Part shown: positions 9,201 to 33,279 of the stretch, in pieces
Layout of the letters: the number at the start of each line of letters is the position of its first letter
How positions within the stretch are numbered: the first letter of the stretch is position 1
Source of the DNA: Zygnema cylindricum
Taxonomy: Eukaryota > Streptophyta > Zygnematophyceae > Zygnematales > Zygnemataceae
Reading direction: 5' to 3'
Length of the DNA: 64,000 nucleotides
Assembly: GCA_037447655.1 (NCBI GenBank)
Contig: JBBHKE010000330.1
Location: 1-64,000, forward strand
Program-made: the position numbers and the translations under genes
The notes under the pieces: model-generated
What the model was told of the DNA's origin: nothing
Database searches by the model: none
What the model saw: only the letters and a program-made list of their open reading frames with translations

Positions 9201-10249
9201 TGCAACACTGAGACCTTCATATGTCCTCAAAGTTGGCACTTCACACAATGCGTCTAGGATAACCCTGATCCCTTTGTGTTTCAGCAACAATAACAGACAC
9301 CCTGCCAGACAAAAACTCTGACCACCTCCACCCTCGTCAAGGGAATACTCCTTTGAGTCGATAGCAAAATAAAATTTGTGAATGCTCTCCTGAGCAGTAA
9401 GTTATGTAGGGTCAAAGTTGACAATTTGTACAAAAGCTCTTTGGGAGAGAGGGTCCTATATACCAAAATTTTCTAAGTCTTATCTCTCTCTAAAACTCTA
9501 TCTATTGAAATGCGACACCAATCAGAATAATGTATCGTATAAAAAGGTACAGGTGACGGTGTACTTTCTGTATGGCCATTGTGCGACATGGCCAACAAGT
9601 CGACACATGTCATATTTAGACTTGTTCTTTTAATTCCCGGAGATGCCGTTATCCAATGTTGTCATGCCACGTGTCAGTCGATGTGGCGATGACAGAAAAA
9701 CCGCCAAAATCCTATTCCGCGATCTCGGCATCCTTCGCGGCCTTCCGATCAAAACCGGATTTTAATCGTAGTTATCATAAATTATTGCGCGATATTTGTT
9801 TGGCTGTCGAAACAGAATGCGCGGTATCCTTTTCGTATTCGTACCATAATCCGTACTTTACAAAATTGTATCCATGGATGACGTCTATAACTTTAGTTAA
9901 ATGAATTTGTTTACGCGTAACTTTATATATATTTGTCAAACCCTACATGTCTCAGCACCAATCCTAGACTTCTAGGATAAAGCTAAGAGTTGCCGGCTAG
10001 ATTGGCAGACGTTAGGTACCAAGATCAAATCCTGGGTGTGTCAGGTACCTTTTTAGTGAATCTACTAAAACACCTGCCTGTCTCTCCTTGGATAACATAA
10101 GAAACCATGGCTCTATCTCCCGCTTCAACCTTCAATGAGTGCGACAAGTGTGGGAGCTGAAGAGAGGAGTTAAAGGCAGACTACCTCGGCTTCTTTTCTA
10201 TAATTAGTTAAGACCTAGAAAATACTAAAAATAACCATTAATTTCTACA
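9201..10249 (-). repeat. Copia-2 3' LTR (class A)
   Basis: Reads TGCAACACTGAGACC to ATTTCTACA on the plus strand, 1049 bp, the same length as both Copia-6 LTRs and of the same class. The polypurine tract of the minus-strand element (AAAATAAAGGGAG) abuts it at 10250-10262. Contains a GTAC cluster (about 9530-9590), a CACGTG box (9668-9673) and a tRNA-like box (about 10017-10060). Confidence 0.85.
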
Positions 10250-11242
10250 CTCCCTTTATTTTCTAGTCACCTTTTAATTTCAAACCACACTTCTACTTGC
10301 AAAATATTAGCTTGGGGGAAGGCACAGATTGGTCATCATATCTGCTACCATTTCACTATCTGGTTTATATTATAAACTGATTTTTTGTCTTCTACCTTTT
10401 CCCTAACGAAACTAAGTCTAATGTCCATATGTTTTACTTTAAAATGGTGTTTAGGATTGGCAGTAATGCAATAACTGCCTGATTGTCACAAAATACTTTC
10501 TGAACACCAGTTTTTTGTTTCCAAAATATCTATAAAACTATTTTCATTATGTGATTTTTTCATTTCTAAGTTATACTTTCTACAATCTTTGACGTACTTA
10601 TCATGTCTAACTCCCTTATGTACCTCTTTTCCCTTTACTTCCTTTATACCTCCAAAAGCACATTTTTGCTTTCGTGAAATTTTTGTGTGTTTTTCTCTTT
10701 TCTCCTTTCTACCGATGTGAAGAAGCTCCAAAATATGTTCATCCTCTTTCTCCTCTTCCCCTTCTTCCTTTTCAATTACATAACAACTTCGAAGATTTTC
10801 CAAACAAGTGCATTCCTCCATATAATGATGCAATTCCCTACAAAAGAAGGAAACCCGTTTTTTCAAAACTCCCCTTTCTTTTCCACTCCCTCTCTTTCCT
10901 CCAAAGTTCCGATAAGGTTTACCTTTGTCTTTCTTCCTCTCATCATGCCTGTGCGAGTCACCATCGTTCCTCTCAAAACGCTTCCGCCAATCACCACCAG
11001 CTATCACTCCATTCACCCTGTCACTTCCCCTACGAAGCTCCAAAGTGCTTTCCCTCACAAGAATCATCCCCATGGTAATGCTCCAAGTCCACTAGGAGCA
11101 ATCCATTGCCTGCATACGGCAAACTATGTTTTTGTACTCATTTGGAAGTTTCATGATTAGTGTGTTAATATTTCTCACCTCAAACTCTACATAACCTACA
11201 CTTACAAACTCAACCTATATTGCACCAATATCATTGCAAATC
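10250..11242 (-). pseudogene. Copia-2: RNase H end fused to gag by deletion
   Basis: Reading right to left, gag text runs from VRESTLELRRG (11060) through a degraded zinc knuckle (FFCRELHHYMEEC) to the pol start KQKCAFGGIKE (about 10640). It then passes directly into RNase H text, which normally sits more than 1,000 codons later (CDNQAV, KHMDIRLSFVREKVE). Protease, integrase and RT are therefore deleted. The 195-codon open frame 10486-11073 spans the join. The remaining gag continues beyond gypsy-A at 25035. Confidence 0.8.
11238..11242. repeat. Target site duplication AAATC (left) of gypsy-A
   Basis: AAATC precedes the TGTC terminus at 11243 and recurs right after the other end (25034-25038, sharing the terminal A). 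Joining the flanks restores ATTGCAAATCTCTATCATGC. The related uninterrupted Copia gag at 39654-39683 reads ATTGCAAAACTCTATCATGC, so the empty site is confirmed inside the window. Confidence 0.9.
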
Positions 11243-12415
11243 TGTCAAGCTCGAGTGCTTTTCAGGCACACTTTTATATTACCAAAGATTTCCGTACCCT
11301 TCCGACCCGTACTATTCTCAGATTTTGGAGAAGCCCGCACAACCTGCCGGAAGGATTGAAGTATTTCCTCTACTGAACAAGACGCACTTTGTTTCGTGCC
11401 TAACGGAGGCTGGACGACAAAGTTCTACCGTCTGAAAGATCGCAGTTCCGTCACATAGTACTAGCTTCCACCAGCCCTAGTGGAGGGTACATTGTGGATT
11501 GCCACGTAGACTTCCAGACTGTAATCTAGATTTTGCTGTTAGCTCTCTGTAGCAATTCAGTTCAGATTTAGCTGACCAGTTGTTAATTAATTACATTAAG
11601 TCAAAGCTTGGCACTTCCGTGTCTTTTTAGTACTTTGTCTTAAAAACTGTGGAACAAATAATATCTTCCGGCCGCGGATCTAGCCGTGGTCAAAGGTCCA
11701 ACTTTTTGCCTCAAGAGTAGTACACATTATTTTGTCTTATGTCAGTTTGATTGCCGTTGCTGGTCGCTCATTGGCTAATAGCATAGGTTTGACTTTTGGA
11801 CCTGAGTTTGGACAAACTTTGATGTATAAGGCGCTTGGGGCCAAAGGAGACAGGTTGCTTTTCAGTACTGTCTCCTGTGAAAACCCTCTGAAATTCCAAC
11901 AAACCTTCTTTTGGAGAATCTTTGTGTTGTTTGACTCTATTGCCATCTCTGTTTTGGATTTGTCCATTTTGGGAATCATAGTTCGGGCTGGTGGTTGGCA
12001 CTACCGTCCCTTTGGGCGATTTTTGGATTTTTTTATGCTTGAAATTGAGAAGAGTCTAGTCGGTTCTGAGCTGCGGACACCGAGGGTTGAAGGAGTACCA
12101 TACCTATTTACACTGCCATCAGGAGAGATTTCGCCTTTCTCCCATTGTCATCGTAAATTGCCGGGGTATGTTAAGCTTGCTTCGCCATCTTTTATATCTT
12201 CCATCTTATATTTTATTTCTGTGGTCAAAGTGATATTGTTAAATCTGAAACAGCCATTCCTATTTATTTTTATATGTCCACGTGGTATTGCATTTGTGTC
12301 TTCACTTTTAGTCTCTTTTGCTTTGGCGGGGACTTCCCGGGGTAAAACTGCAATGTCCTAGCATCTAAACAGTGGGTTTTGAGGGAACGAATGCTATAGA
12401 CTTCCTGTGGAATAA
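11243..12415 (+). repeat. Gypsy-A split repeat, first 1173-bp arm
   Basis: Matches 23578-24750 base for base in length, from TGTCAAGCTCGAG to TGTGGAATAA. After 12415 the sequence (GCACAGTACTG) no longer matches the right copy, which continues with the 284-bp block. No clear tRNA 3'-end complement follows, so the primer is unknown. Confidence 0.9.
11732..12361 (+). other. 209-codon hydrophobic open frame inside the repeat arm
   Basis: Begins MSYVSLIAVAGRSLANSIG and has hydrophobic stretches around residues 65-90, 145-175 and 185-205 that could be membrane segments. The same frame is open in the second arm (24067-24696). Of the differences between the copies roughly ten change the amino acid and four do not, so no selection for protein is visible. 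No family recognised. It may be LTR regulatory sequence that is open by chance. Confidence 0.3.
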
Positions 12416-12546
12416 GCACAGTACTGAAAAGCCCACCTGTCTCCTCCGGATTAGAGGGGATAGGAGATTTTGGACTTTAGAAGCTCTCTTGGCGGAAGCG
12501 AGTATTGTTTTCTGTCGTTAATTCCTCTTTCGAGACCTTCGTCATC

Positions 12547-15500
12547 ATGGGGGGGGGTGAAGCTCAAGATAAGAATCTCTCCGGTGCCAGGCCAGAAGAA
12601 CGGGCGAATCGAGAAGCGGTGGTATCAGAAGAAGAGTCATAGGTTCACGAATAATCCGTCTCCTTCACCTCGCCTGCCAACATACAGCGGTTTCTCCAGG
12701 GGATGATGCCTGAGCCTGTTAGGGTTGAAACTCCTCCAAAACCACCCGAACCACAAAATTCGCCCCCATCTCCTCCTAGCCTCACTCCTGAACATTTTCC
12801 CTCCTTGGCGGAGGCCTCCAGAACCTTTGCCGAGGAAAGAAAGGAGTCCAGAGCACAAACTCAAGAAAGAAACCGAGTGTTACCCCGGGGCAGGCCAAAG
12901 AGGCAAGCTCAGCGGGAGCCCCTTTTGAGTCCCCTTCCAGAGGTCAGGCTTCACACCAGATCAAAGATTCCCAGGGCCGAAATTCAGATTGACCCTGCGG
13001 TTTTGACGGATGCCAGCCGCCCTGGTCGAAAGGAAATCCTTGCTCTTCATGATCTTCATGAACTGGAGGTTAAGCAGGAGTTGGTGCAAAGAGTGTCTCG
13101 GTCGGATCGACCTCGGGTGGTTAAACCAGTGGGAGGGGTAGTGGAGATTCTAAGTAGCTCTTCAGAGGGTGGTTCCTCCCAGTCCTTGCGGGAACGGCCC
13201 AGGAGGGCTCCTCTTTCTCGCCCTCCTCCATCTACTTCCCAAGACACTGCAGCCAGCCGACCGTCCCGGGGGCGCCCAGCTTCGAGGTCTCGTAGGGGAG
13301 CAGGTGGCAGCGATAGCGGGGTTCCAGAGCCGGGGAGGGGGAAGAAGTTTGACCACAGGGATAGCAAGGGTAGATTTGCACGTATTCCCAAGGAAGAACC
13401 TTCCCCAACGCCAGTGCCAGTCTCCACCGAGAGATCTACCCCTCCGGCACCCCGGGTCCGCCCTGATGGAGGGTTCTGGCGACCCGAACCCAATGACCCA
13501 GAGGTTCCGGAAACCGAACCAGAAGAGTTGTCCGAGAGATTGTTTCGAGCCAAGCCTACAGATCCAAAAATTCTAGGAGCAGGGATAGCTGATCTGACCG
13601 GAGTAGTGGAAAGGGCTAAGGAACTAGTGGAAATTTTAAAATCTCAGGGCTCGGCTACGGCGGACACTGGACCCGTTACAGTAGATTGGGAAGCGTTGGA
13701 GGAAGAACGGAGAAAGTTGTGGGAGCAGGAATTGAATCTCATCCGAGAAACTAGGCGGAGGTCCAGTGGGATCCTTAGTGGGCGGATCCCTCCAACACCA
13801 GTAGCGGAAACCCCGCCCGGAGCTCCACCCGAGGCTCCTCCTTCGAAGATTAGTCAGGAACCTCCTCTTCAGCGGGAAGAGGGGGCAGACACAAGACCTA
13901 ATATTGGGGGTTTGGGTGCAGATTTACCGTCTGAACTCAAAGCGGCTCCGCGAGAAGAGCCTACTTTTGTTTTGGTGGAGGTTTCTGAAGCTGTTGAGGC
14001 CTTAGTGGAGTTACGACCGGACGAAAGAATTCACATCCCCTTGAGACCGTCTACACCTCCTTCTCCTCCACCCAGACTGTCCCCTGATCCTCCTCCTTTC
14101 CCTCCTCATCCTCCTACTTCCCACTTCCAGGCTCCGGCAGCAAAACCCCAGGACAATCCCATCTCCTCTCCATCTCTTTGCGTTTCTCTTACTGGAGCTG
14201 ACCGTGGGTCCCCAGGTCAGCTGAATTTACCCTATAAGTACGACGTATACTCCCCTCCACACCGGCATTCCCCATCCTCTAGTTCTGGAACTCCTCCCCC
14301 TGAAACCTCCAGAAGAAGGCCTCGGAAACCAACCTCGTTCAGGAGACAGACACCTTCTCCCCAGAACCGGCCTTCATCTCCATCTTCTTTTCCATCCCTA
14401 CCCCAATATCCACCTGCAAACCGACCTCGACTTCACATCCCGTCCATGACGATAGTTCTCCGGGACGAGCTATACTCTAGTGGATATAGAGGGGTTGATA
14501 TAGGGGAGTGGGTCCCTTCTACTTCAGTCGGACATACAGGCCCACAAACGCGGATATCCTCTGCACCAAGAGAGTAATCAAGGAATACCCTTCCTCCTAC
14601 CACATTTCTAGGGACGGGTACTTCCTCTGCTAGAAGAGATTCCACACCTCACAGGGCAACACCTCCTACCGGAGGAGGAGTCGGATCCATTCCCGAGGAA
14701 GAGGACCTAGGAGCCACTTTGCCAGCCCAGTTTGTCAGTCCCACTGGACCTTCCTTGTCTCAGTTCACACATTCAGCAGAGGAGGAAAAGGAAATGGGGG
14801 ACATCCGAATCTTTACAGGAGGTAGCTCTGGGATAGCTTTCTCTGATTTCGAATTGTTGTGGAAATCCTTCACCCAATGTGAAATTAACAAGTACAGGGG
14901 AGGAGCTATTCCTGACGACTTCGAAATAACTCTCTTTCCCATGATGGTCAACTACCTCTCTGGAGGGGCGTTGGCAGATTATAAGGAGCGTCAACCTCTC
15001 TTGATGGCTCCAAGCATCAAAATCTCAGATCCGGCCCTGGATGCAAAAGTTTTACGAGCAGAGGCATATTTTGCTGCCGCAGCTGTGACCCCTGTAACAA
15101 CTACCTTCACCGATGATATGAAGTTGCAGGCCTAAGGGAGGGCCTATGTTAACCAGCTGCAAGCAATTCAGGCAGCTCGGGCTGCAACTCGTATGGTGGT
15201 GAATCCTACCCCTTGCACCACTCTTCTAAACATCTGGAGACTCCTCTACACCGAGAGGAACGAATCAGCCATCAAGGAATTCACGGAATTCCGGTTTTTG
15301 AAGAATGAGACGCCTCAGACACTCTTTAATCGCCTCTCTAGTCTTTGTCACAAAACTAAACTATCTACCATTGACCTTCCCGCAATGGCGACCAAGTATT
15401 TCATTGCTGTCTGTAATTCCTTTGGACCGACACGGCAGACTGCCTTGGATAACTGGATCGCAAGACAAGCCATCCAGGACATAAATCCCTTGGCCAAGGA

Positions 15501-16908
15501 CATATCCCTGGTGGCCATGAAGTTATACGACCACTTCGTTCACAATGAGGCGAGAGAAAAAGCGGTGACCGGCAAGGTAAGAGTGAATTTTGCAGGATTC
15601 ATCGGGGAAACTTCCTTAAGTTGGTAAGAACAAGCGGAACTCCAAGCTTTGCGGAAGCTTAAAGGGAAGCAAGTTGTGGAGAGCGAGCCAGAACCTGCAA
15701 CGGGGGCCGATGATCGGGTGATTCTGTACAATTGCCTAAATTGTCAACAACTTGGACATACATGGAAACGCTGCAGCAGGAAACTCAAACCAGAGCTAGC
15801 CCTCAAGTTGAAAGAATGGGAGGTAGAGCGTTCAGAAAGGAGCCAGAAGCAGCATGAAGAAAGGCTCAAAGCATGGGGGGGGGAGAGAACACCGGTCACA
15901 AAGAACAATTACCGACCCACTCCCCAGAGCGAAACTTCGAAAATGTCCCAGTCCCAACTGCGGCAAATCAAACTGCCAAAGTTTGACGATGCTCAGATCT
16001 CCAACGAGATTCGAAACAAGTATACCACTGAGGGTCACAAATGCGAAGCCTGTGGTTTTATGGGGCACAAGGAGGGACAATGTTTCCGGAAGAACGGGAT
16101 ACCTAAGGAAATGATGCAATTCGCTTTGTTCACGGGAGGAGGAGAGACTGCCGTTAACCCTCTTCCCCTACAACTCCTTTATCCTTGGGAGCGCCCAGTG
16201 CTGCCTACACCAGTGACGCCAAAAACATTAACGACTGCTCTCGCAAGACTTACACCATAGATAATAATCCAACAGCATAGTCAGCAGATGGCTGCCATGG
16301 CTGCAAAATTGGCTGCACTTTGTTTGGGGTCGACTTACCGGCCTTCTCCTCTTACGGCAGCGCAACGACTCCAAAGACAGAAGCAAGAATTATTGCAAAA
16401 GCTAGCGGAGCTTGAGCTTCAAAGCACATCGGGTGTTAATGACGATGATTTGATGGGCTGGGATTTGGAACCCCCAAATGCCCACCATGCAAACAGTTTC
16501 CTGCACGGAGCATGGAATGTTGGAGTGGGAGATGGTCGTAGACAACTCCGCTCCTCAACCTCGGATCAAAGGAGAGACAGGCGCAAAATGGGCCAAAAGG
16601 ACCACAACAGGAAGGCCACCGGGCCTTTGTCTTTCACGCCCAGGGCAGTCATTCTGAACAGTGACATAAGCCTTGGGATCAAGCCCACTCAACCCCCTCC
16701 TCCTCCTCCTCAACCTAAATTGCCTCCCGGTTTCGAAAATTACAAGAAAGAGAAACTGCAGCAGGAGACAAAATCACTGGAAGAGGACAACCAAAGTACA
16801 CAGGATTGGTTTGAGCGGTTTATGGCCGAACGCCCGGACGAAGATGCACCAAAAACTCCACCCGTACCCGATTGCGGTTCTGAAACTGATTGCAACGAAG
16901 AGATATAA
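12547..16908 (+). pseudogene. Gypsy-A gag polyprotein (N-terminal extension, capsid, two zinc knuckles)
   Basis: One continuous frame with stops near 12640, 12655, 14575, 15133, 15625, 16258 and 16906. The first 620 or so codons (12703-14577) are a Pro/Ser/Arg/Glu-rich, probably disordered extension. Capsid-like sequence follows (14790-15620; IFTGGSSGIAFSDFELLWKSF, then ESAIKEFTEFRFLKNETPQTLFNRL). Next are two CCHC knuckles, CLNCQQLGHTWKRC (about 15733-15774) and CEACGFMGHKEGQC (about 16042-16083), and a Gln/Pro-rich spacer to 16908. The knuckles imply packaging of element RNA. The start is uncertain: MGGGEAQ at 12547 follows a G-run, and MMPEP at 12703 opens the longest uninterrupted part. 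Confidence 0.82.
12703..14577 (+). CDS. Gypsy-A gag N-terminal region, 624-codon open part
   Basis: Longest uninterrupted open frame of gypsy-A. The product is dominated by Pro, Ser, Arg and Glu, with runs such as PPSPPSLTPEHFPSL and RPSTPPSPPPRLSPDPPPF. It has no recognised domain, no signal peptide and no membrane segment. It is in the same frame as the rest of gag-pol, so it is best read as an extended gag N-terminus, not a separate gene. A stop (TAA, 14575-14577) separates it from the capsid part. Function unknown; such tails can be spacers or RNA- or chromatin-binding regions. Confidence 0.6.
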   Translation: MMPEPVRVETPPKPPEPQNSPPSPPSLTPEHFPSLAEASRTFAEERKESRAQTQERNRVLPRGRPKRQAQREPLLSPLPEVRLHTRSKIPRAEIQIDPAVLTDASRPGRKEILALHDLHELEVKQELVQRVSRSDRPRVVKPVGGVVEILSSSSEGGSSQSLRERPRRAPLSRPPPSTSQDTAASRPSRGRPASRSRRGAGGSDSGVPEPGRGKKFDHRDSKGRFARIPKEEPSPTPVPVSTERSTPPAPRVRPDGGFWRPEPNDPEVPETEPEELSERLFRAKPTDPKILGAGIADLTGVVERAKELVEILKSQGSATADTGPVTVDWEALEEERRKLWEQELNLIRETRRRSSGILSGRIPPTPVAETPPGAPPEAPPSKISQEPPLQREEGADTRPNIGGLGADLPSELKAAPREEPTFVLVEVSEAVEALVELRPDERIHIPLRPSTPPSPPPRLSPDPPPFPPHPPTSHFQAPAAKPQDNPISSPSLCVSLTGADRGSPGQLNLPYKYDVYSPPHRHSPSSSSGTPPPETSRRRPRKPTSFRRQTPSPQNRPSSPSSFPSLPQYPPANRPRLHIPSMTIVLRDELYSSGYRGVDIGEWVPSTSVGHTGPQTRISSAPRE

Positions 16909-16926
16909 CCCGATGAGGAACAAAAT

Positions 16927-17514
16927 TTGCCGACATCCTCCCCAAAAGCTCCGCTCTATTCCTATAAGCCTGCTAGTATACTGGTCCGGCATTTGATGCC
17001 TTATGCCTTAACCCATGTCAAGACCCTTGCTTCCTCTCATAATCTGCACGAAGAGATCCTCATTCAGGCCCTGGGAGAAGAGATCCATTCTGGAAAAGAC
17101 AAAGTCGACAAGGTGACACCACCCACGGCGGTATACTTGTCTTCAGATCCTAAGACCCCTATGGCGGATAGGGACTACAAAACTTTGTCCATGGCACTCA
17201 TTCTAAACCGAACCGGGAATTTCAAACTGAACGGGTACGGCGGGTATCAGGACGCTGTGGTTGATATCGGAGCGCTTCCTAACCTCATCACTACTTCTGC
17301 ATTGCAGAAAATGCCGGAAGAACTCAGACCCCAGATCTGCCCGAGTAACATCTGCTTGAGCACAGTCAGCAGCGCCAATCAGCCAGTCCATGGAATCATC
17401 AAAGCCATGGACATTGAATTCTCAGATGATGCGGGACAAAAGGTGAAAATTGGACTTCCTTTCTTAGTGGTAGAAGGGAATCAGTTTGAAATTCTGTTGG
17501 GAATGGCAACTTAG
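16927..17514 (+). pseudogene. Gypsy-A aspartic protease region
   Basis: Retropepsin-type segment. The active-site loop reads AVVDIGALPNLIT (about 17257-17295), where family members have D-T/S-G-A, so the Thr/Ser next to the catalytic Asp is Ile here. The hydrophobic-hydrophobic-Gly motif is present as EILLGMAT (about 17488-17511), followed by a TAG. It would cleave the gag-pol polyprotein. The active-site change and stop suggest it is inactive. It is followed by a short spacer (17521-17724) before the methyltransferase. Confidence 0.75.
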
Positions 17515-17772
17515 ACCCGCGTGAATATGAGTTTGAGTGTCTGGAAGGAGCAATGTACAGTTCGAGACCCAGGAAATCCCGAAGGAACCAAAGTTGTGGT
17601 TCCTTTGGATTTATGGAACCGGGGAAAGACAAATGTTCCGGTGTCTGGCTGTTACCCCGTGTATTCTACCACCTCTCCGACGGAGCTGTTTGACAGTTCC
17701 ACGGATATTGCCGAAGACATCTAGTAATTCGCGATTTCCAAGCGGTGGGAAAGAGAATACACAGACAGATTA

Positions 17773-18987
17773 TTGCAAAAGGCGAAACTCCGGCGGGGAG
17801 TGGATCAAACATTCTCGGCCTTACTATTACCGAAAACAAATTCGATGATCCAGTCAGATGTTTTCAAAACCAAGACTGGGAGCGAGGACTTCAATCGACA
17901 AATGGTGTCTTTGACAGTCCCAGACTCCGGACTTCGGATTTTATCTTTATTTTCAGGAATCAGTTCTGATTTGGAGGCAGTTTTAAAGGTAGGGTATCGA
18001 GTGGAGTCATGCACAGCAGTGGAAATTTCACCGGAAGCGCGAGCTGTCAGCAAACACCGCCTACATCAACAGCACCGCTTATATCCTCAACAGCTTCCAG
18101 TGTCTTCCATTTCCAAAGCTCACCGGAGTCTTCCCCAGAATGTGGATAATATAATGGCACCTCATTTAGCTAGTCTGGGAAGAGTAGATCTGGTTGTGGC
18201 GGGATGGCCTTGTCAAGGATACTCCCTAGCAGGACAAGGAAGAGGGTATCAGGACCACGGAAGTGGAACCTTCTATCAGATGATTACATTGATATCGTGG
18301 ATTCAGCAGCTCCAAGACACACCAGTGGGCTACATTCTGGAAAATGTCCACCCGGGGGATGATAAATGAAAGCAGGTTGCAGAAAGTAGGAATCAGGTAA
18401 CCCGTATTCTGGGAGCTCCCTTGGTTTTTAACGCTGCTCAAATGGGATCTCGAGCGCACAGACTCTAGGCATATTGGACAAATATGATCCCTCTTCCAGT
18501 CCTCCGGCAACTGTTGGAGACACAAACCCCCGACCCCCAGATTTCTGTGCAGCTGATACTTGGAAAAGGGAGAATGGCGACAACTGTAACAAAACCGGAT
18601 CGTACACCTTTCTTCCAATGCAATATCCCCGGATTCCCACGTCGAGCACTCCCCACGTTGGTATCTTTTCCTCACAGTCACGCCTACCGGAAAGGAGCAG
18701 CTGAAATGATTTTTGATAGCAAGGAAAGACTTTAGACAGCACCAACAATACCAAAACGAGAACATGCAATGGGATTTCATCCGGAAACCACGGCAGCACC
18801 AGGTATTTCAGACCTACAGCGGTGCAGCCTCATAGGGCAAAGCATGGATTTAAATGCCATTACATGGGTTGTAAAGCATGCTCTTGCCTATTCCAGTCTC
18901 CACGCTCTAGATTCACGCAGAAATTACCTTCAAGCTCCACAGTTACTGTCCATGCAAGCAACTTTGCAGCTTGAGGGGGGGAGATAA
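17773..18987 (+). pseudogene. Gypsy-A DNMT3-like cytosine-C5 DNA methyltransferase domain
   Basis: Transfers a methyl group from S-adenosylmethionine to cytosine C5. Motifs are in the family order: I, RILSLFSGISSDLEAVL (about 17935-17985) for cofactor binding; IV, VVAGWPCQGYSLAGQGRG with the catalytic Cys (18190-18245); VI, YILENV (about 18331-18348); VIII, GAPLVFNAAQMGSRAHRL (about 18412-18465), close to the DNMT3/DRM AAHRARYFWGN motif; X, LQRCSLIGQSMDLNAITWVV (18812-18872). It lies between protease and RT in the pol frame. Stops at 18367, 18466, 18733 and 18985 inactivate it. Gypsy elements with DNMT domains are published for charophytes. Confidence 0.88.
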
Positions 18988-19032
18988 AAGAGAAAAATTC
19001 TACACCCGAGAGTTCCTTCAGCGGGGAGGAAC

Positions 19033-20160
19033 ATGAGCTCAGAAGGAGACAGCTTAGCAGAAGTTGTCAGCAGTAAAGTATTATCCGGAGGAATAGAGGC
19101 AGATCCACAGGTTGGGTTAGAATTCGACATCAACCTCTGGGGAAGACCACCGGAAGCTTGGGCTGCGGTTGAGCCGGGAAAAATGGACTGGACTCTGGGG
19201 GAGCAGCTAGACCCTCAGCAGAAAGAACAACTAACAGAACTCTTAGCTAGAAACACTCAGGTTTTCTCATGGTCCGAAACAGATGTCGGAATCTTCAAAG
19301 GAACCCCCTTTCGGAAAGATTTGATCGACGAAACCGCAACAGTTTGGCAGAAACAATATCCTCTCAACTTCAAAGAGAAAGAGTTTATTACTGCAAAGGT
19401 TCAAACTTTGGTGGACGTAGGGTTGGTTCAGGCAAGTACCGGACTCCATGGGTTTGCTTCCCCCACAGTTCTCCCTCCTAAGAAGGATTCATCCGGGAAA
19501 ACTGTGGACTTCCGAATGACAGGGGAATACCGCATGTTGAACACGATCACCATTCCTGACCAGTACCCCATGCAAACTCCGGAAGAGATATTCGACTCTC
19601 TTGCTGGGGCCACTATTTTCTCCACACTGGACATGAAGAATAGTTTCCACCAGATTGCCATGGAACCAAAACACCGGGAGAGATTGGCATTCTGGGCCGG
19701 ATCCAGACTTTATGAGTGGATTTACATGCCTTTTGGGCTGAAGAATGCACCAGCAAAGTTCTAACGGGCCATGGACGAAGCGCTCCGAGGAATCGATTGC
19801 GCCAGGTGCTACATCGACGATGTGATAATATTTTCCAAGAGCTTTGAAGAACACCTGGAGCATATCTAGATCGTTCTCCGGGCTCTTCAAGCAGCGAACT
19901 TGAAATGTCACCCGGGCAAGGGTATTTTTGGGGTGCAGAAAATCATTTACCTCGGACATGAGGTAACTCCTGGGACATTGTGTCCCCATATGGTGAAGGT
20001 TGCAGCCCTCGACGATCTTCCTCCCCCGCAGGACATTTCGGCCTCGCGCACCTTTCTCGGCCTGGCTAACTACTATCGCAGGTCTATTCCTGAGTTCAGT
20101 AGTCACACCCAGCCCCTCAATAAGCTATTACGGAAAGATCAAGAATGGCAGTGGGCCGAG
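19033..20160 (+). pseudogene. Gypsy-A reverse transcriptase
   Basis: Ty3/gypsy RT. Visible in order: EQLTELLARNTQVFSWSETDVG, ASPTVLPPKKDSSGKTVDFRM (19456-19520), EYRMLNTITIPDQYPMQTPEEI, LDMKNSFHQIAM (19627-19663), YEWIYMPFGLKNAPAKF (19711-19762), the intact catalytic box CYIDDVIIFSKS (19807-19842), and the FLGLANYYRRSIPEF thumb/connection motif (20056-20100). Stops at 19762 (family normally F-Q-R here, so CAA to TAA), 19867 and 20164 disrupt it. Same frame as gag and DNMT. Confidence 0.9.
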
Positions 20161-20937
20161 GAATAGCAGATCGCTTTCCAGTTCTTGAAGGATGCCCTGA
20201 AGCAGCACCCAGTGCTCCGGATGCCTGATCACCAGAGGCCTTTCCTCCTTTACACTGATTAGAGCAGGTTTGGATTGGGAGCTGTTTTCGCTCAAGTTGA
20301 CGACGCAGGTGCCGAGTATGTGGTGGCTTACGCCAGCCGAAGCAATAACCGAGCTGAGGGAAATTATAGCAGTTATCATGGGGAGCTTCTTGCCGCGGTT
20401 TGGGCCATCCAGCATTTCAAACCTTATTTGTACGGGGTCCATTTCACACTAATCACCGATCACCAACCCTTGAAGTGGATTATAAAAAATAGTAAGTTGA
20501 CCGGCAAACTCGCCAGATGGGTTCTTATCCTGCAGGAATATGATTTCAGCATTGTCCACCGGGCAGGGGAAATTCATGGGAATGCCGACAGACTGAGCCG
20601 AAACCCCGATCCTTCTACCCTGGATTCCACCGGGGCTCGGCAGAACGAGGATCCGGAAATCAGTTTGGGACTCATTCGAGCATCCTCAGCCTTCATTTGG
20701 CTTCTTCCATTTGGGGGGGAATTGTCAACTTTTGCAGCAGATGTTGAGGGGCAGGCACCCATGGGAGCCGGACGGAAAGAAATTTGGAATGACTCCGAAG
20801 CTCTCCAATCTATTCAGCAGGGATCCCCTCTTCCCCACTTGGCTGGAATTCAATTATCCCGAGTTTAGACCCGGATGGCGGCGTATGAGTGGGACCGAGG
20901 AGTGCTCCTCCGGAAATAGACAGACGGTACTAGGAGA
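20161..20937 (+). pseudogene. Gypsy-A RNase H and connection to integrase
   Basis: RNase H text FLLYTD (about 20245-20262, first catalytic Asp), a TAG at 20263, GLGAVFAQ, YASRSNNRAEGNYSSYHGEL (about 20332-20390, catalytic Glu), LITDHQPLKWI (20449-20485, Asp) and VHRAGEIHGNADRLSR (about 20554-20600, His/Asp). All catalytic residues remain. Stops at 20263, 20866 and 20917 break the frame. It then leads into the poorly conserved connection before the integrase zinc domain. Confidence 0.85.
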
Positions 20938-21596
20938 GTGGTTCCTCCTCCCTCAGATCGAGAAACTTTGATTACCAATCTCCATAAACAACGTGGACAC
21001 TTCGAACAGAAGCAAACCACTTCCTTGGTTACACGCTCTTACTGGTGGCACGGGTTGCGGGCCCAATTCAACCGAATTCTAGAGACTTGCTCTTCTTGCG
21101 ATCGAGTTAAGGCAGCTTTTGACAAAAAGGGCGGGACTGAGCTCCATTCTCTTCCCATCAGGGGAATGTTTTATCGGTGGTCTTTGGATCTTTTGGGACC
21201 TCTTCCGACCAGCAGACGTGGGAATCGTTTCGTTCTGGTCATGATTGAGCATTTCTCAAAATGGATAGAGCTTGTGGTCCTGCCCCGAAAGGAGTCCAAG
21301 TCCATTTCCGACGCCTTTGTGCAGAGTGTTCTGTCACAGTTTGGGGCGCCAGCAGAGGTTCTGACCGACCAGGGATCGGAATTCGCCGGAGAATTTACCA
21401 ATATTTTGGATAAATGCCTCATCGACCATCGACTTACCAGCCGCGACCACCCCCAAGCCGACGGTTTGGCCGAAAGGTGCGTACAGACAGTGAACTGGTC
21501 ACTACGGAAATATGCAGTTGAAGAGGACTTGGGAGAGTGGGACAGAAGGGTGCCTTGGATTGCCATGGGATACTGATTGAACAGACAGGCTTCTCT
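20938..21596 (+). pseudogene. Gypsy-A DDE integrase, zinc and catalytic domains
   Basis: Inserts element DNA. HHCC zinc domain H-x4-H...C-x2-C from LHKQRGHF to CSSCDRV (20965-21105), core motifs SLDLLGPLPTSRRG (21181-21220, first Asp), LTDQGSEFAGEF (21361-21395, second Asp) and DHPQADGLAERCVQT (about 21445-21492, Glu). The triad is intact. A TGA at 21574 (likely from CGA) and the solo LTR at 21602 interrupt it. The protein continues at 22608, where the frame shift is exactly that expected from the 1006-bp insertion. Confidence 0.88.
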
Positions 21597-22607
21597 TCAC
21601 TTGCAATTCTGTGTCCTCCATTGGACTACAGAATACAGGAAGCCTCTAGATAGTATTTAACTAACCCACTTTAAGCCACGACCACTTCTTCCCTAGAAGG
21701 CAAACTGACAATTTGACTGCACCCCTGTGTAGCGTGGACTCCCTTGAGTCCGTAGCAAAAAGAATCACTGAAAAGGCCAACCATGCGATAAGTTATGAGC
21801 CGGCAAAAATGCCAATTTATACAAAGCTCTCTTAGAGAGAGGTGTCTATCTACCAAAGATATCGTAAGTCCTAAATCCCTCTCACAACCCCTATCTACTA
21901 AAGTACGAACCAATCGTATTACTGTAAAGTACAAAAAGGTACTATGGCCGATGTACTTTCTGTACGGCCAGTGTACGACAAGACTCTTGAGTGGACGCGT
22001 GTCATTTTTCCACTTGTCCGTATTTTCCCCGGAATTCCCGCGACCGGATGTCATCCTTCCACGCGGCGCCACGTCATGCCACGTCCATAAAATCCAAAGT
22101 GACCATTCCGCGATCTCGGCGACGACGTGCTCCGTCGGATTAAATCTCACATTAAATGTCGACCGTTCAAAGTATCTGTTTCATTTGTTTCGTGCGAAAT
22201 GACGTTCGCACTAAACTTTAACAAGTTATATGTTCGTTTCGTTTCATGTTCCAGTTAAATCGTTTCGGTACTATACAACAGTTTATATATGAATGAAACC
22301 CTATAATATCTATCGGACTTCTACGACAGACTCGTTAGAGCTAACGGCTACGCCGCGCTCTACCGGTCGGGGGTTCGAGTCCTACCGGACTCAACCTTTT
22401 TGTTGAGAGTGACTTAAGTCACTCTTTAGTCCTTGCTATGGAGCTGAGGCAGCCATGGCTCCATCGCTCTCTCTCTCCTTCAGTGACTACAACAAGTATG
22501 GGGGAAAGAGAGAAGAGATGGAGGCAGGCGGCCATCATTTCTTATATATATTTCCGCTAATTCATTTTAAACTAGAAAATACAAAAACTACTTATTTCAA
22601 CATCACT
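21597..22607 (-). mobile_element. Solo class D Copia LTR inside gypsy-A integrase
   Basis: LTR of 1001 bp (21602-22602) from TGCAATTCTGTG to ATTTCAACA, flanked on both sides by TCACT (21597-21601 and 22603-22607). With one LTR and no internal part, it is the product of LTR-LTR recombination of a minus-strand class D Copia. It contains a six-fold GTAC cluster (21903-21977), a tRNA-like box with GGTTCGAGTCC (22372-22382) followed by a T-run, and the palindrome AGCCATGGCT (22451-22460). It is younger than gypsy-A. Confidence 0.92.
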
Positions 22608-23084
22608 CCTACAGCCCTTATTTCATTTTATTCGGACGGCATCCCATTCTGCCCGGGGCTGCCTCTGCCCAAGCGGTGGTCCTCCCGGCAATGGATGACA
22701 AGGGAACTGTCGAAAAACTGATCGCCGACCGTGCCAAAATTTTCCACCAGGAGATGCCTCTCGCCATGGGGAATTTACAGGCGGCACAACACCGGGATCA
22801 ATTGTGGTATTCCCAGCGCAGGAGCGGAGATTATGTGCCCTGACAGTGACGATTTATGCCGAGAGACTTTGTTTATCACATGCAACAGAAAAAGGACACG
22901 CTTGACATTTCTGCCGGACCGGTGATCTTGAAAGTGGTGGAAGTTTGAAATAAGGGAGTTCTGACTTTGGAAGGGAATGATGGGCAAAGAATTAAAGAGA
23001 ATCAAATCAATGTGGCCCCTTGTCACCTCCGAGGATTAGAAGACGACCCAACTTTCCACTTGACTTACTTTGCCGATCCTCCTT
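22608..23084 (+). pseudogene. Gypsy-A integrase C-terminal part with GPY/F-like module
   Basis: Continues the integrase beyond the solo LTR: a typical gypsy segment on host-site folding (FGRHPILPG, then LAMGNLQAAQHRDQLWY). Next comes a beta-rich module reading SAGPVILKVVE, a stop, then GVLTLEGNDGQRIKENQINVAP (about 22912-23020), like the GPY/F domain that ends many gypsy integrases. Stops near 22842 and 22947. It is directly followed by the PHD finger in the same frame. Confidence 0.78.
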
Positions 23085-23245
23085 CGTGTTCATCATCTTG
23101 CAACTTGTCATCCCAACAGCAAGACATCTTGGTCTGCCATAAGTGCGGGCAGTGCTGGCATCCAGCTTGTCTTCCCTCCTCATGGGAACCACGCCCTCCA
23201 TCCCCTAGTCCATGGTTCTGCGGGAACTGTGAATTGGGCGGGTAA
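23085..23245 (+). CDS. Gypsy-A C-terminal PHD zinc finger
   Basis: End of the gag-pol frame, stop at 23243-23245. Cysteines and histidine follow C-x3-C-x11-C-x2-C-x4-H-x2-C-x16-C-x2-C (first Cys 23087-23089, last pair WFCGNC at about 23213-23230), with the Trp two residues before the seventh Cys typical of PHD fingers. PHD fingers usually read histone H3 tail states, so this may steer integration or the methyltransferase to chosen chromatin. It occupies the place where chromoviruses carry a chromodomain. The same finger ends gypsy-B. Confidence 0.85.
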
Positions 23246-23274
23246 CTATTTCTTTTTCTTAGTCACGGTTGACT

Positions 23275-23291
23275 AAGAGGGGGGGGGGAAA
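23275..23291 (+). promoter_or_regulatory. Gypsy-A polypurine tract
   Basis: AAGAGGGGGGGGGGAAA-type run directly before the first 284-bp block and 30 bases after the last codon. In LTR retroelements this RNase H-resistant tract primes plus-strand DNA and marks the start of the 3' LTR. The replication-defined LTR therefore starts with the 284-bp block, not with the TGTC terminus. Confidence 0.82.
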
Positions 23292-23575
23292 TTGGGGCAC
23301 CGACCCGATTACCGAGAACCCAACCCCTTTCCCCGGTTTAATGGGGAAAGTAAGAGGGAGGGGAGATCTTTTCGCCTTCCCATGCACTCATCCCTATTCC
23401 CTATCCTTGTGCCTCGCCTATCTGTGCATGCATTCCTGTTGGGAGGGATGGGGTCAGCAGTGGGCATTATCATTATTATGGGAAGCATTCGCATTGGCGG
23501 GTTCTTTGCAAGACGCCGAGACCGGCCATTCCGGGCAGCGGGCCCTTCCCTTGTGTTTCTCTGGCACGCTCGACA
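23292..23575 (+). repeat. Gypsy-A split repeat, first 284-bp arm
   Basis: Direct repeat of 24751-25034, from TTGGGGCACCGACC to CTCGACA. Equal length, about ten differences by eye. It lies between the polypurine tract and the palindromic junction GACAGCTGTC (23572-23581). Confidence 0.9.
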
Positions 23576-23581
23576 GCTGTC
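23572..23581. promoter_or_regulatory. Palindromic arm junction GACAGCTGTC
   Basis: Perfect 10-bp palindrome where the 284-bp arm (ending GACA) meets the 1173-bp arm (starting TGTC), with GC between. The outer ends of gypsy-A are TGTC and GACA, the two halves of this palindrome without the GC. A DDE integrase cut after CA on both strands here would make precisely those ends. Confidence 0.75.
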
Positions 23582-24750
23582 AAACTCGAGTGCTTTTCAG
23601 GCAAACTTCTATATTACCAAAGATTTCCGTACCCTTCCGACCCGTACTATTCTCAGATTTTGGAGAAGCCCGCTCAACCTGCTGGAAGGATTGAAGTATT
23701 TCCTCTACTGAACAAGACGCACTTTGTTTCGTGCCTAACGGATGCTGGACGACAATGTTCTACCGTCTGAAAGATCGCAGTTCCGTCACATAGTACTAGC
23801 TTCCACCAGCCCTAGTGGAGGGTACATTGTGGATTGCCACGTAGACTTTCGGACTGTAATCTAGATTTAATTGTTAGCTGTCTGTAGCAATTCAGTTCAG
23901 ATTCAACTGACCATTGGTTAATTAATTACATTAAGTCAAAGCTTGGCACTTCCGTGTCTTTTTAGTATTTTGTCTTAAAAACTGTGGAAGAAATAATAAC
24001 TTCCGGCCGCGGATCTAGCCGTGGTCAGAGGTCCAACTTTTTGCCCCAAGAGTAGTATACATTATTTTGTCTTATGTCTGTTTGATTGCCGTTGCTGGTC
24101 GCTCATTGGCTAATAGCGTAGGTTTGACTTTTGGACCTGAGTTTGGACAAACTTTGATGTATAAGGCGCTTGGGGCCGAAGGAGACAGGTTGCTTTTCAG
24201 TAGTGTCTCCTGTGAAAACCCTCTGAAATTCCAACAAACCTTCTTTTGGAGAATCTTTGTGTTGTTTGACTCTATTGCCATCTCTGTTTTGGATTTGTCC
24301 ATTTTGGGAATCATAGTTCGGGCTGGTGGTTGGCACTACCGTCCCTTTGGGCGATTTTTGGATTTTTCGATGCTTGAAACTGAGAAGAGTCTAGTCGGTT
24401 CTGAGCTGCGGACACCGAGGGTTGAAGGAGTACCATACCTATTTACACTTCCATCAGAAGAGATTTCGCCTTTCTCCCATTGTCATCGTAAATTGCCGGG
24501 GTATGTTAAGCTTGCTTCGCCATCTTTTATATCTTCCATCTTATATTTTATTTATGTGGTCAAGGTGATATTGTTAAATCTGAAACAACCATTCATATTT
24601 ATTTTTATATGTCCACGTGGTAGTGCATTTGTGTCTTCACTATTAGTCTCTTTTGCTTTGGCGGGGACTTCCCGGGGTAAAACTGCAATTTCCTAGCATC
24701 GAAACAGTGGGTTTTGAGGGAACGAATGCTATAGACTTCTTGTGGAATAA
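23578..24750 (+). repeat. Gypsy-A split repeat, second 1173-bp arm
   Basis: Copy of 11243-12415. It runs directly into the second 284-bp arm at TGTGGAATAA/TTGGGGCACC with no extra base. It includes the second copy of the hydrophobic open frame (24067-24696). Confidence 0.9.
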
Positions 24751-25034
24751 TTGGGGCACCGACCCAATTACCGAGAACCCAACCCCTATTCCGGGCTTAA
24801 TGGGGAAAGTAAGGGGGAGGGGAGATCTTTTCGCCTTCCCATGCACTCATCCCTATTCCCTATCCTTGTGCCTCTCCTATATGTGCATGCATTCCTGTTG
24901 GGAGGGATGGGGTCAGCAGTGGGCATTATCATTATTATGGGAAGCATTCGCATTGGCGCGTTCTTTGCAGGACGCCGAGACCGGCCATTCCGGGCAGCGG
25001 GCCCTTCCCTTGTGTTTCTCTGGCACGCTCGACA
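24751..25034 (+). repeat. Gypsy-A split repeat, second 284-bp arm
   Basis: Copy of 23292-23575 forming the right end of gypsy-A, ending CTCGACA directly before the right target duplication (AATCT flank). Confidence 0.9.
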
Positions 25035-25554
25035 AATCTCTATCATGCTACCGCCTTTAACAACATAGGCCTCTTTTTCCTCTTATACTAATTGCTGCCT
25101 CTGTATAGTTTCACTCTTAAAAATATGAATCACTGTTTCCCAAGTTTCTAAAGACTTGGTTAGGTTTAAAAGAGTGATATCTATGGACTTAAAGACGTAT
25201 CTAAGTATGAGATGTTTTACCATGGTATTTTTATACTCCAATTTTTTACTCTCATTTTCTTCAGTTTTAGTTATAACCTCTACTAGTGGAACTATAGCGG
25301 AGAGTTTAGCTCCCCTAACCATAGGTGTTCCTTTACCCTTCTCCCCTTCTGTTGCATCTAATCTCCAGTTGGTTTCAAGGAAGCCAAGATGAATCTCTAT
25401 AGTGAGTTCCACCAAATCTTGGTGGCAGACACCTCAGTGGTCCTAAAAAATTCCCCATAAGTGCTTTTCGAAAAGCAACCCCTCCATCGTAAACTCCCAA
25501 TAAGTGAAGCCTATTCCATCAAACATAGGCACCCTAGATGGTGTGCCCATAACT
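25035..25554 (-). pseudogene. Copia-2 gag N-terminal part (class C)
   Basis: Resumes the gag interrupted at 11242. The 110-codon frame 25083-25415 reads VRGAKLSAIVPLVEVITKTEENESKKLEYKNTMVKHLILRYVFK on the minus strand. It is closely related to Copia-5 gag (39822-40172) and, more distantly, to the other Copia gags (...EENDTETWDFNNMAAKHFILRHLTQ). The PBS-like GGTGTGCCCATAACT (25540-25554) sits next to the LTR. Stops and frameshifts present. Confidence 0.78.
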
Positions 25555-26173
25555 AGTAACTCTAAGACCTTAATTGGTCCTCAGAGTAGGCAGCTCACAA
25601 GAAGCTTATCTAGATAGTGCTAACTCCAAGTTTATACAAACCCAAATGACTGACACCATGACAGTCAGAACTCCAATATATTAGACTTTCCATGTGCTCA
25701 GATCCACCTCAGAATGCAAAATTACAATAAGAGTTTTTGATAACATTTCCCACTTTGGCTTTCCATTAGAAAGTCAGCAACCCTGGATGGCAAAAATTAT
25801 AACCGACTAAACCCCTGTGTAGCATAGACTCTTTAGAGTTTGGAGCAAAAAAAATCACTGAAAATGGTCAACTGAGTTAATAGTTATAGCTGACTAAAGT
25901 TTGTCTTTTATTCACGATGCACTATGGGAGAGCCGGCTACCTACCAGAAATATTCCAAGTCCTAAAACCCCTCTCTAAGGCCCCTATTACTGAGGTACGG
26001 ACAACTCACACGAATGTACCGTACAAGAAAGTACAAGTGCTAGAGTACTTTCTGTACCGTCCATGTACGACAAAGCTATAATGCGATATTTGTCACATCC
26101 GGATTTGTTGTCTTCTGCTCCAAAGATTTCGTAAACCCGTATGATGTTGCCACATGTCATCCGGAGTGGCGGC
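25555..26173 (-). repeat. Copia-2 5' LTR, truncated (class C)
   Basis: Starts at the PBS border and carries the class C landmarks seen at 40240-40800: CTAGATAGTGC, the CCACTTTGGCTTTCC segment, the CCCCTGTGTAGC segment, the target-like GTACGG...GTACAAGAAAGTAC cluster (25997-26067). It ends at 26173, where a plus-strand LTR begins. The matching 3' LTR (9201-10249) is of class A, so Copia-2 is a mosaic. Confidence 0.75.
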
Positions 26174-27221
26174 TGAAGAAATTAATGGTTATTTTTTGTA
26201 TTTTCTTGTTCTAAATTAATTATAGAAAAGAAGCCGAGGTAGTCTGCCTCTAACTCCTCTCTTCAACTCCCACACTTGTCGCAGTCACAAAAGGTTGAAG
26301 AGGGAGATAAAACCATGGCTGACTGTGCTATCCAGGGAGAGAAATGTTGGTGTTTTAGTCGATTCACTAAAAAGGTACCTGACAGACCCAGGATTTGATC
26401 ATGGTACCTACCGTTTGCCAATATAGCTGGTAACGCTTACCTTTATCTTACAAGTCCAGGATCGGTGCTGAGACATGTAAGTTTTGACAAATTTGTAAAT
26501 TGTTACGCATGAACAAATTCATTTAGCTGAAAATGTAGGCGTCGAGCATAGATACAATTTTGTATAGTACGGATTACGATACGAATACAAAACGGATATT
26601 GCGCATTTTGTTTCAACAACGAAACAAATATTGCACAACGATTTATGATGGCTAAGATTAAAACCTGGTTTTGATCAGACGACAACAAAGGATGTTGAGA
26701 TTGCGGAATAGGATTTTGGCGGTTTTCGGTCACCGCCACATCGATTGTCACGTGTCACGACCCCATTGGATTACGTCATCTTTGGGGATTACACGAACAA
26801 ATCCAGATATGACGTGTGTTGACTAGTAAGCCATGTCGTACAATGGCCATACAGATAGTATACCGCACATTAACCTTTTTGTACAACACAGTATTTTGAT
26901 TGGCGTCGTACATGAATAGATAGAGTTTTAGAGAGAGATTGGACTTATAAAAGTTTGGTTGATAGGACCCTCCCTCCCAAAGAGCTTCTTTAGAAAACCT
27001 CAACTTTGACCCTCTATAACTTACTGCTTAGGGGACTAAAATTAGAGAATATTTTTGCTATAGACTAAAGGAAGTCTTCTGTTCACACGGGTGAAGGTGG
27101 TCAGAGTTTTTGTTTGCCAAGGTGGCAGTTATTCTTGCTGAAACACAAAGGGGTTAGGGTTAACTTAGAGGCTTTGTGGGAGTGGCCTACTCTGAGGTCC
27201 TATGGAGGTCTTAGAGTTGCA
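26174..27221 (+). repeat. Copia-3 5' LTR
   Basis: Plus-strand LTR of 1048 bp, TGAAGAAATTAATGG to AGAGTTGCA, containing the inverted set of LTR landmarks: tRNA-like box (about 26390-26410), hairpin arms (about 26607-26630), CACGTG at 26752, GTAC cluster (26836-26915). It is followed at once by the primer-binding site CGTTATGGGCCCACC (27222-27236). The gag ATG (27202) is inside the LTR. Confidence 0.88.
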
Positions 27222-29600: not shown

Positions 29601-30300
29601 AGTGTCCGCTAACAATCGAACTAACAATCCACCAAACGAAAGATAATTTTTAGCTCTTTTCTTTACTCGTTCCTCCTCCTCGGACGTAGTGCTTAGTCGA
29701 AAGGTTTTTGAGGAGAGGAAAAGAATTAGTGCTCCGTCTCGCCGTGGATGTGGGGCAGAACGGGAGTCGGGTAGCAAAGCTAAAGAATATGTGATATAAA
29801 GCCCTGCTGACATAGAAGCTAAGTCGTCATCGAAATTCTGCCGGACTCTATTGTCTGTGGTCCCCGGCAAAGGATTTCGGGAAATGCCGTCTGCATTGAG
29901 GCTTAGTAATCATAGACGGTGAATTATTTCCACATCATATTCTTGTAAAATTAATGCCTATCACGCTAGTTTTTCAAACAGTTTACCGTTCGTCATTAGC
30001 CAATGACAAGGTTGATGGTCAGTTAGAACTGTAAATGGTTTTCCGTTAAGGTAGTGACGAAAGTGTACAATACCCCAAACTGCGACCATACATTCTCCAT
30101 CATAACTAGTGTAATTTAACTCCGCACGATTATTACTTCGGCTTGCGCAAGCGACCACATATTCTTCTTCTGTCAGTTCACGCTGAGTTATGATAGCCGC
30201 AATGCCAGGCTTTCCAAAGTCTGTTTGTATGCAGAAAAGTAATTTGTGATTAGGAGGTCGGAGGATGGGAGCACTAGAGAGGGCATCTTTCAACTTCTGA
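29601..30300 (-). pseudogene. Gypsy-B RNase H and connection
   Basis: LFCIQTDFGKPGIAAI (about 30245-30195, catalytic Asp), YVVACASRSNNRAELNYTSYDGEC (about 30165-30090, Glu), FTVLTDHQPCHWL (about 30035-29998, Asp), then LQEYDVEIIHR and NADGISRNPLPG. The frame closes at 29961 and reopens with a stop or two. The connection continues through ERLSLIKQIH to the integrase zinc domain. Catalytic residues remain. Confidence 0.82.
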
Positions 30301-31519: not shown

Positions 31520-31718
31520 GGCTTGTGCAAAAGCTAGTTGTTCATCTGCGATAAGTGACTGGCCTAATGAATAAACAACCAGTGTTTCCTGTAAGCAGTT
31601 TGTCCAATGGTGCCAGTTGCGAGTAGGAAAAGCTGCGGTCTAGTGAGAAGGTGTTGACATATGAATACAGGGAGCCCATTGGGCAGCAGTATATGCCGGA
31701 ATGGACCATGACATGTGG

Positions 31719-33143: not shown

Positions 33144-33279
33144 AATGGGTATGGGTTTGCGTGCTGAAATTAGAGGGAGACGTATTTTTTTTTCCGGATA
33201 ATTGGTAGGACAGTAGGTAAAATGTCTTGATCGTACAAATCAACGCCGCCTCCTACTCTGAAAATCATATCTTGCCCCA

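Follow-up and report, generated by a model that had tools for sequence, protein, structure and literature searches.

A Ty3/gypsy-type family of Zygnema cylindricum with split direct repeats and a proposed integrase site inside its long terminal repeat

Layout and coding region of the window copy

The window analyzed here, positions 1 to 64,000 of contig JBBHKE010000330.1 from Zygnema cylindricum (GCA_037447655.1, forward strand), contains a retroelement that, together with its target duplications, occupies positions 11239-25038. Two kinds of repeat arm, A and B, are arranged in it exactly in the order A1-internal-B1-GC-A2-B2, and the copy is a decayed member of a large family of Ty3/gypsy type, which probably integrates as a rotated version of its complementary DNA (cDNA), cut at an internal palindrome and with its free ends joined. 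The parts of this copy that bear on its layout are the following.

11239..11242, unstranded: left target-site duplication, AATC
11243..12415, + strand: arm A1, 1173 bp, beginning with TGTC (the integrase-made end), 3.5% from A2
11845..11871, + strand: possible self-primer (A 603-629), complementary to the primer-binding side
12418..12445, + strand: primer-binding side, adjoining A1, partner of the possible self-primer
23275..23291, + strand: polypurine tract AAGAGGGGGGGGGGAAA, adjoining B1; its 3' end recurs in seams
23292..23575, + strand: arm B1 (5' part of the unique 3' region, U3), 284 bp, ending in GACA
23572..23581, unstranded: putative internal integrase site, the palindrome GACA-GC-TGTC at the B1/A2 join
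23578..24750, + strand: arm A2, 1173 bp
24750..24751, + strand: seam A2|B2, proposed to be two joined cDNA ends, here without added bases
24751..25034, + strand: arm B2, 284 bp, ending in GACA (the integrase-made end)
25035..25038, unstranded: right target-site duplication, AATC

In an ungapped comparison, A1 and A2 differ at 41 positions and B1 and B2 at 10, which amounts to 3.5% for each pair and is in line with an earlier note on this DNA that had put both at 3-4%. The arm coordinates and lengths given there (A of 1173 bp and B of 284 bp, each twice) agree with this comparison, and its order A-internal-B-GC-A-B and seam at 24750/24751 are exact in the sequence, the seam reading TGTGGAATAA/TTGGGGCACC. 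Furthermore, a related empty site that it had placed near 39654-39683 is present as TTGCAAAACTCTATC within 39620-39720 (near 39.65 kb), with one mismatch to the duplication. The target duplication itself, however, had been read as 5 bp (AAATC) and is in fact 4 bp, AATC: since B ends in GACA and A begins with TGTC, the outer ends of the element are TGTC...GACA, and the fifth base counted there is the A that terminates the element. Arm A1 would hold the 3' part of U3, followed by the repeat (R) and the unique 5' region (U5).

Stop codons interrupt the coding region, so that the window copy has to be regarded as decayed. Its recognizable parts all lie on the + strand.

12655..17514, + strand: single stop-interrupted frame (TAA and TAG stops) with a gag-like part (by position), a cysteine-rich part and a weak protease match
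16909-17514, + strand: weak aspartyl-protease match (PF13650, E=0.028, below the cut-off)
17728..18369, + strand: piece of a C5 DNA methyltransferase, DNMT3-like (PF00145, E=4.9e-9)
18988..19764, + strand: reverse transcriptase piece (PF00078, E=2.1e-9)
20263..20868, + strand: ribonuclease H (RNase H) piece (PF17917, E=4.3e-31)
20920..21576, + strand: DDE integrase, zinc-binding domain and core (rve, E=6.5e-12; Integrase_H2C2, E=4.8e-13)

The reverse transcriptase and RNase H are of the gypsy type by these domain matches, and the DDE integrase lies downstream of both, which bears out the description as a DDE-integrase gypsy element. Compared with solved structures, the integrase finds its best match in Ty3 (1.3e-16) and also matches that of prototype foamy virus (PFV; 3.9e-14), and three acidic residues, which we take to be the catalytic ones, align with those of the Ty3 and PFV enzymes. 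The methyltransferase piece, whose frame is broken in the window copy, sits between the protease-like part and the reverse transcriptase, and its nearest solved structure is DNMT3C (1e-5), then DNMT3A. While a protein search with the reverse transcriptase piece returned 14 relatives, an IMG/VR scan with the same piece and a protein search with the methyltransferase piece returned none. No tyrosine recombinase (PF00589) was matched at E<=0.1 in 20 internal frames of at least 120 codons of this decayed copy, and neither a tRNA scan nor an Rfam scan of the window gave a match.

Arm order, insertion ends and seams across the genome

The host assembly (352.8 Mb, 2689 contigs) was searched for further copies, a check that the earlier note had recommended. 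Each query scored the best 40 of 487-883 first-look places (872 candidates for the query covering the start of arm A), and all counts are samples of the best-scoring copies of a larger family. In all 40 usable 5' ends the flank is followed by A, and in no case (0/40) does B lie upstream. These comprise 21 copies in which A is followed by the primer side, the window copy included, and 19 of 20 further ones; the rows derive from 40 places, 37 of which were usable (C628 and C57 were left out, and L095 is without an arm), plus three from another query. Four copies that lack the primer side and whose A1 is broken (L003, L044, L052, and L055) were kept out of the count, and they have no B upstream either. 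Plain B-A or A-B long terminal repeat (LTR) copies are absent among the 40 usable 5' ends, and the arrangement B-A...B-A with duplications outside B, which the earlier note had set against its own reading, was not seen in the best-scoring samples. The integrated ends are not formed by two whole LTRs whose ends serve as integrase ends; the family is Ty3/gypsy by its proteins, but not a standard member by its repeat order.

At the 3' side, the query consisted of the internal region through B plus 17 bases beyond. Among the best 40 of 883 places, 23 continue into GC-TGTC (the full form), 13 stop at GACA (A-internal-B), and 4 are unclear; at an identity of at least 92%, the ratio of full to A-internal-B ends is 15 to 12. 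Twelve of the 13 A-internal-B ends were read directly and continue into the flank. The internal region lies upstream in 21 of the 23 B-GC-A junctions covered (C1214 and C152 among them), and the other two belong to an A-seam-B dimer (C1614) and to a compound copy (C1864). In addition, the copies read from a second subfamily, about 84% identical, agree with this layout and with these seams. Because of the 21 internal-B-GC-A junctions and the 40 A-starting 5' ends, a standing life cycle is favored over an accident, the two options between which the earlier note had not chosen: the rotated layout is a standing trait of a large family, with the same order at more than 20 other loci.

The flanks were compared in 33 pairings, 18 of which show an exact 4-bp duplication, while none does so at 3, 5, or 6 bp; a 5-bp duplication is thereby rejected for these copies as well. 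Exact duplications occur in all forms (full, 8/15; A-internal-B, 5/9; solo or dimer, 5/9), and shuffled flank pairings gave a mean of 0.75 and a maximum of 4 exact matches among 33. Seven more pairings agree at 3 of 4 bases. The table was made without the irregular solo L031, the C1864 compound, and L003/L035, which has ACTT on both sides.

The palindrome GACA-GC-TGTC (GACAGCTGTC) is perfect in 18 of 19 rows, two of which are repeats, i.e., in 16 of 17 different copies, the altered C1864 junction standing outside this count. A cut after CA on both strands would give both ends seen at insertions, with GC as the lost 2-nt overhang. It is thus well supported that the integrase ends lie inside the B-A LTR and coincide with the internal palindrome, where the earlier note had also placed the insertion ends, and the sequences suggest that the integrase of the family cuts this B-A palindrome within the LTR.

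Between near-intact arms, 35 A|B seams fall into 25 distinct strings. The window's empty seam included, 21 of them correspond exactly to a primer-side prefix, that is, the sequence beyond A1 (GCACA... or GTACA...), plus a suffix from the end of the polypurine tract (...GGGAAA). A shuffle test was applied to 29 of the 35 seams, leaving out the empty seam and five A-side-trimmed rows; 20 of these non-empty untrimmed seams fit, as compared to 0.71 on average and at most 5 after shuffling of letters. Left out of the seam table were repeats (L006, L013, and L008, of L012, L002, and L059), larger deletions or trims (L002, L022, L023, L028, L038, L053, L059, and L073), as well as L103, L105, and L127 (the second seam of C1864); 9 of the 35 seams were entered by hand, and L019/L024 are probably one insertion counted twice.

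Copies that are sisters in a tree of A arms differ in their seams (L021/L026, L011/L029, and, less supported, L016/L017). In contrast, L019 (C908) and L024 (C1156) share both the seam and the right flank, one being solo and the other having the internal side, and are probably a single insertion in two states, either as alleles or through a duplication. An inherited seam was rejected on these grounds. Since sister copies differ, the seams seem to be made afresh per insertion, and each looks like an end-joined junction of slightly uneven cDNA ends. The earlier note's proposal is well supported in these points: reverse transcription yields an LTR in the order B-A, the polypurine tract adjoins B, and the cDNA ends are joined at A|B.

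Two loci contain these units in multiples. At 23.0-25.5 kb of C1614 (L059) lies a dimer, A-seam-B-GC-A-seam-B, in which both seams show the identical deletion and the target duplication, ATAT, matches; a crossover between the solo and the full state of one insertion would fit this structure. Three B arms follow each other in C2403 (42758-46136, minus strand), perhaps as another A-seam-B multimer.

The A-arm tree comprises 44 of 46 arms, and its bootstrap is not fully settled. Seven copies have both A arms in it, and these are well-supported sisters in four (C254, 99/97; C1741, 98/96; C1485, 100/95; C1569, 100/99), which is mostly what would be expected for arms made in one round of reverse transcription. 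The earlier suggestion that all four arms of the window copy date from one event is supported for its A arms, since A1 and A2 are sisters in this tree (99/97).

A proposed insertion route and its alternatives

The route that we consider most consistent with these data would start with reverse transcription giving an LTR in the order B-GC-A, with the plus strand starting at the polypurine tract beside B and the minus strand primed beside A, perhaps by the folded-back 5' segment of the RNA. The integrase would then bypass the LTR ends (...AATAAGCA; cDNA ends ...AATAAGCAC and AAATTGGGG...) and cut GACA-GC-TGTC inside the LTR after CA on both strands, which would create a TGTC end (the start of A) and a GACA end (the end of B), and these two ends would be inserted with a 4-bp duplication. 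End joining of the free cDNA ends (A-GCAC... and ...AAA-B) would yield the seam A|B. If only the left palindrome is cut, A-internal-B-A-seam-B would result, whereas cutting of both palindromes, or opening of a one-LTR circle, would leave A-internal-B.

As to priming, the sequence that directly follows A1 could pair with A 603-629, the two being complementary at 26 of 28 positions in the window and at 31 of 31 in copy L005. The longest run of exact matches measures 15 nt, as against 7.7 on average and 12 at most in 500 shuffles. It is therefore possible, judging from this complementarity, that the RNA begins near A 600 and primes itself, its own 5' segment serving as the minus-strand primer; the first copied bases would then be the A end plus GC(ACA), as most seams begin. 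Tf1/sushi gypsy elements prime themselves in this manner, with an RNA 5' segment complementary to the primer-binding site adjoining the LTR. The likeness lies in this complementarity; the stretch, however, is up to 31 nt here as compared to 11 nt in Tf1, and two copies in which half of it is deleted still moved.

Whether cutting precedes or follows joining separates two versions of the route, which we rate about equal. The linear cDNA may be cut at its left palindrome first, with the B fragment staying in the complex and being joined to the right cDNA end, before or after insertion, by break repair. This version, which comes close to an even call, accounts for the uncut right palindrome in full copies and for A-internal-B as the only other clean long form; moreover, seams with large deletions (L053, L073, and C1614) look like products of break repair, provided that these deletions date from the joining step. 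In retroviral synthesis, the double strand is completed earlier at the left LTR than at the right, and a left LTR completed first would have its palindrome cut first, giving both observed forms and no mirror. However, the B fragment would have to be held in place, and the argument depends on the retroviral order of strand synthesis applying here. Alternatively, end joining may close the linear cDNA into a free two-LTR circle, of which the integrase then opens one internal palindrome for insertion, a plausible course that we would stop short of calling probable. The seams do resemble two-LTR circle junctions, and in vitro work on the integrases of PFV and HIV-1 has shown that they cleave circle junctions that are palindromic (PMC1180852, PMC1905944). 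Nevertheless, the right palindrome is kept uncut in 21 of the 23 junctions, and since two equal palindromes predict the mirror form in half of the cases, the plain circle model is strained unless one assumes that the palindrome at a distance of 284 bp from the seam is preferred to that at 1173 bp. Thus, of the two-LTR circle opened by integrase that the earlier note had envisaged, the joined ends and the palindrome ends have held, while the expected mirror form A-B-A-internal-B was not cleanly seen.

Explanations outside this route fare less well. A cycle of the PAT/DIRS type, with repeats copied from RNA and a circle inserted by a tyrosine recombinase, would match the layout, which is that of the split direct repeats of PAT (PMC3266345), but it is contradicted by the DDE integrase, the 4-bp duplications, and the differing seams of sister copies, and the frames of the decayed window copy contain no match to the recombinase; we regard such a cycle as very improbable. 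Even less can be said for a single accidental circle insertion or a misassembly, the probability of which is negligible: nothing beyond the window itself speaks for it, and it is refuted by the more than 20 loci that share the layout with different flanks, duplications, and seams.

Several observations weigh against the rotated-cDNA route as outlined. Fourteen of the 35 seams are not exactly prefix plus suffix. Elsewhere, as many as 545 bases of A or 231 bases of B are missing at the seam, or 10 polypurine bases have been kept (L073, L053, and L023), although the large deletions may have arisen later. Eight of the 33 flank pairings agree at only 0 or 1 of 4 bases. Within the A-arm tree, the arms of C1856 are mutually nearest but meet at an unresolved fork, the C902 pair is not resolved, and those of C1214 (L058, L034) differ by 6.2% and belong to different branches, although the 4-bp duplication of this copy matches; a template switch between co-packaged RNAs is possible in this case. 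Furthermore, L045 (C712) and L056 (C2165), 2 of 21 copies, share a deletion of half the proposed self-primer segment and, being sisters in the tree with different flanks, inserted separately, which is an argument against self-priming as a requirement.

The two product forms raise further points of this kind. A clean mirror, A-seam-B-A-internal-B, was not found among the 23 B-GC-A junctions. The sole junction of B-GC-A with the primer side is part of the compound copy in C1864 (202573 to about 224797), which reads A-s1-B-GC-A-internal-B-GC-A-s2-B with a copia-like stretch inside the internal region. Its two different seams, one altered palindrome, and unmatched flanks (TCCC versus CGCC) led us to reject it as a clean mirror copy, and it could be a recombined mirror or the product of two crossovers. 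Finally, the A-internal-B copies may be secondary, full copies having lost A2 and one B through recombination between B1 and B2. Such recombination seems to occur, as solo A-seam-B copies and the C1614 dimer indicate; yet the A-internal-B copies do not appear older than the full ones (distance of A1 to its nearest neighbor, 8 full versus 7 A-internal-B copies, Mann-Whitney p=0.86), a comparison that is a weak test of any age difference. A secondary origin thus falls only a little short of an even balance.

Related systems, implications and surroundings

The combination of layout, gypsy domains, and Dnmt3 is already in print as one sentence of a legend. According to the legend of Fig. 4c in PMC5890265, KnitGypsy-Dnmt3 of Klebsormidium nitens has gypsy domains, a Dnmt3-type methyltransferase in pol, and a DIRS-like repeat order, described there for DIRS-type elements as A-internal-B-A-B. 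All three features recur here, the comparison being one of descriptions rather than sequences, and the earlier statement that gypsy elements have plain LTRs only has to be corrected in view of this published exception. What differs is that the passages on this element in PMC5890265 do not describe seams, target duplications of the element, the palindrome, an A-internal-B form, priming, or a mechanism; the terms 'circular' and 'target site' have 0 occurrences in that main text. In the open-licence literature searched, PMC5890265 alone combines the layout with gypsy domains, no mechanism, seams, duplications, or sister form were found for such an element, and the evidence on mechanism is new in this respect.

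Split direct repeats are otherwise described for PAT, kangaroo, and TOC elements, all members of the tyrosine-recombinase (DIRS) order (PMC3266345). The order A-internal-B-A-B is common to these and to our family, whereas the latter has a DDE integrase and 4-bp duplications in place of a tyrosine recombinase. The model given for the DIRS1-like group in PMC3266345 involves a circular intermediate and no target duplication, and its members carry a methyltransferase domain of unknown function. That a methyltransferase recurs in DIRS1-like elements, SymbioDIRS, KnitGypsy, and the present family offers no more than a lead toward a possible association with end-joined repeats.

For the proposed cut itself, the closest parallels are retroviral. 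PFV integrase cuts the palindromic LTR-LTR junction after CA on both strands, leaving 2-nt 5' overhangs (PMC1180852), and HIV-1 integrase cuts its own palindromic LTR-LTR junction (PMC1905944). The CA-GC-TG motif would likewise leave a 2-nt 5' overhang after CA. In both viruses, however, the palindrome is the join of two LTR ends, while in our family it lies inside each LTR and the cDNA ends are joined elsewhere, at the seam.

Taken together, a broader interpretation can be put forward on which we are evenly divided: in a lineage with an ordinary DDE integrase, the site of integrase action may have shifted away from the ends of the LTR and into an internal palindrome resembling a circle junction, which would make the joining of cDNA ends obligatory for each productive insertion. 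The DIRS/PAT layout would then have arisen convergently, without a tyrosine recombinase, and the methyltransferase may go with an end-joined or circular lifestyle rather than with the type of recombinase. The family also shows that a tyrosine recombinase cannot be taken for granted from a DIRS/PAT layout, so that elements of this kind can be misclassified if they are annotated only by the arrangement of their repeats.

Whether integrase can make productive use of a joined two-LTR junction has reportedly been argued over since the 1980s, with Panganiban and Temin among those involved. The work on foamy virus and HIV-1 has reopened this question (PMC1180852, PMC1905944). In the natural family described here, a copy seems to require such a join if it is to be copied again, because only the full form keeps the A2 arm, which would supply the 3' repeat for strand transfer. 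Dozens of copies preserve the products of joining in their seams, which opens the order of cutting, the pathway of end joining, and priming to tests on sequences and in vitro.

The surroundings of the window copy contain further repeats and elements. The element is flanked by the arms of an inverted repeat (10001-10249 and 26174-26422), which are 88% complementary over 249 bp and 15.9 kb apart. A 60-bp direct repeat, 82% alike, links the sequence just past the integrase piece (21715-21774) with the right flank (25805-25864). Judged from translations by eye, a separate gypsy-like element is present on the minus strand at 29961-35073, and copia-like elements lie, likewise on the minus strand, at 42992-47356, 50271-53856, and 56681-62268, one of them with an open frame of 841 codons.

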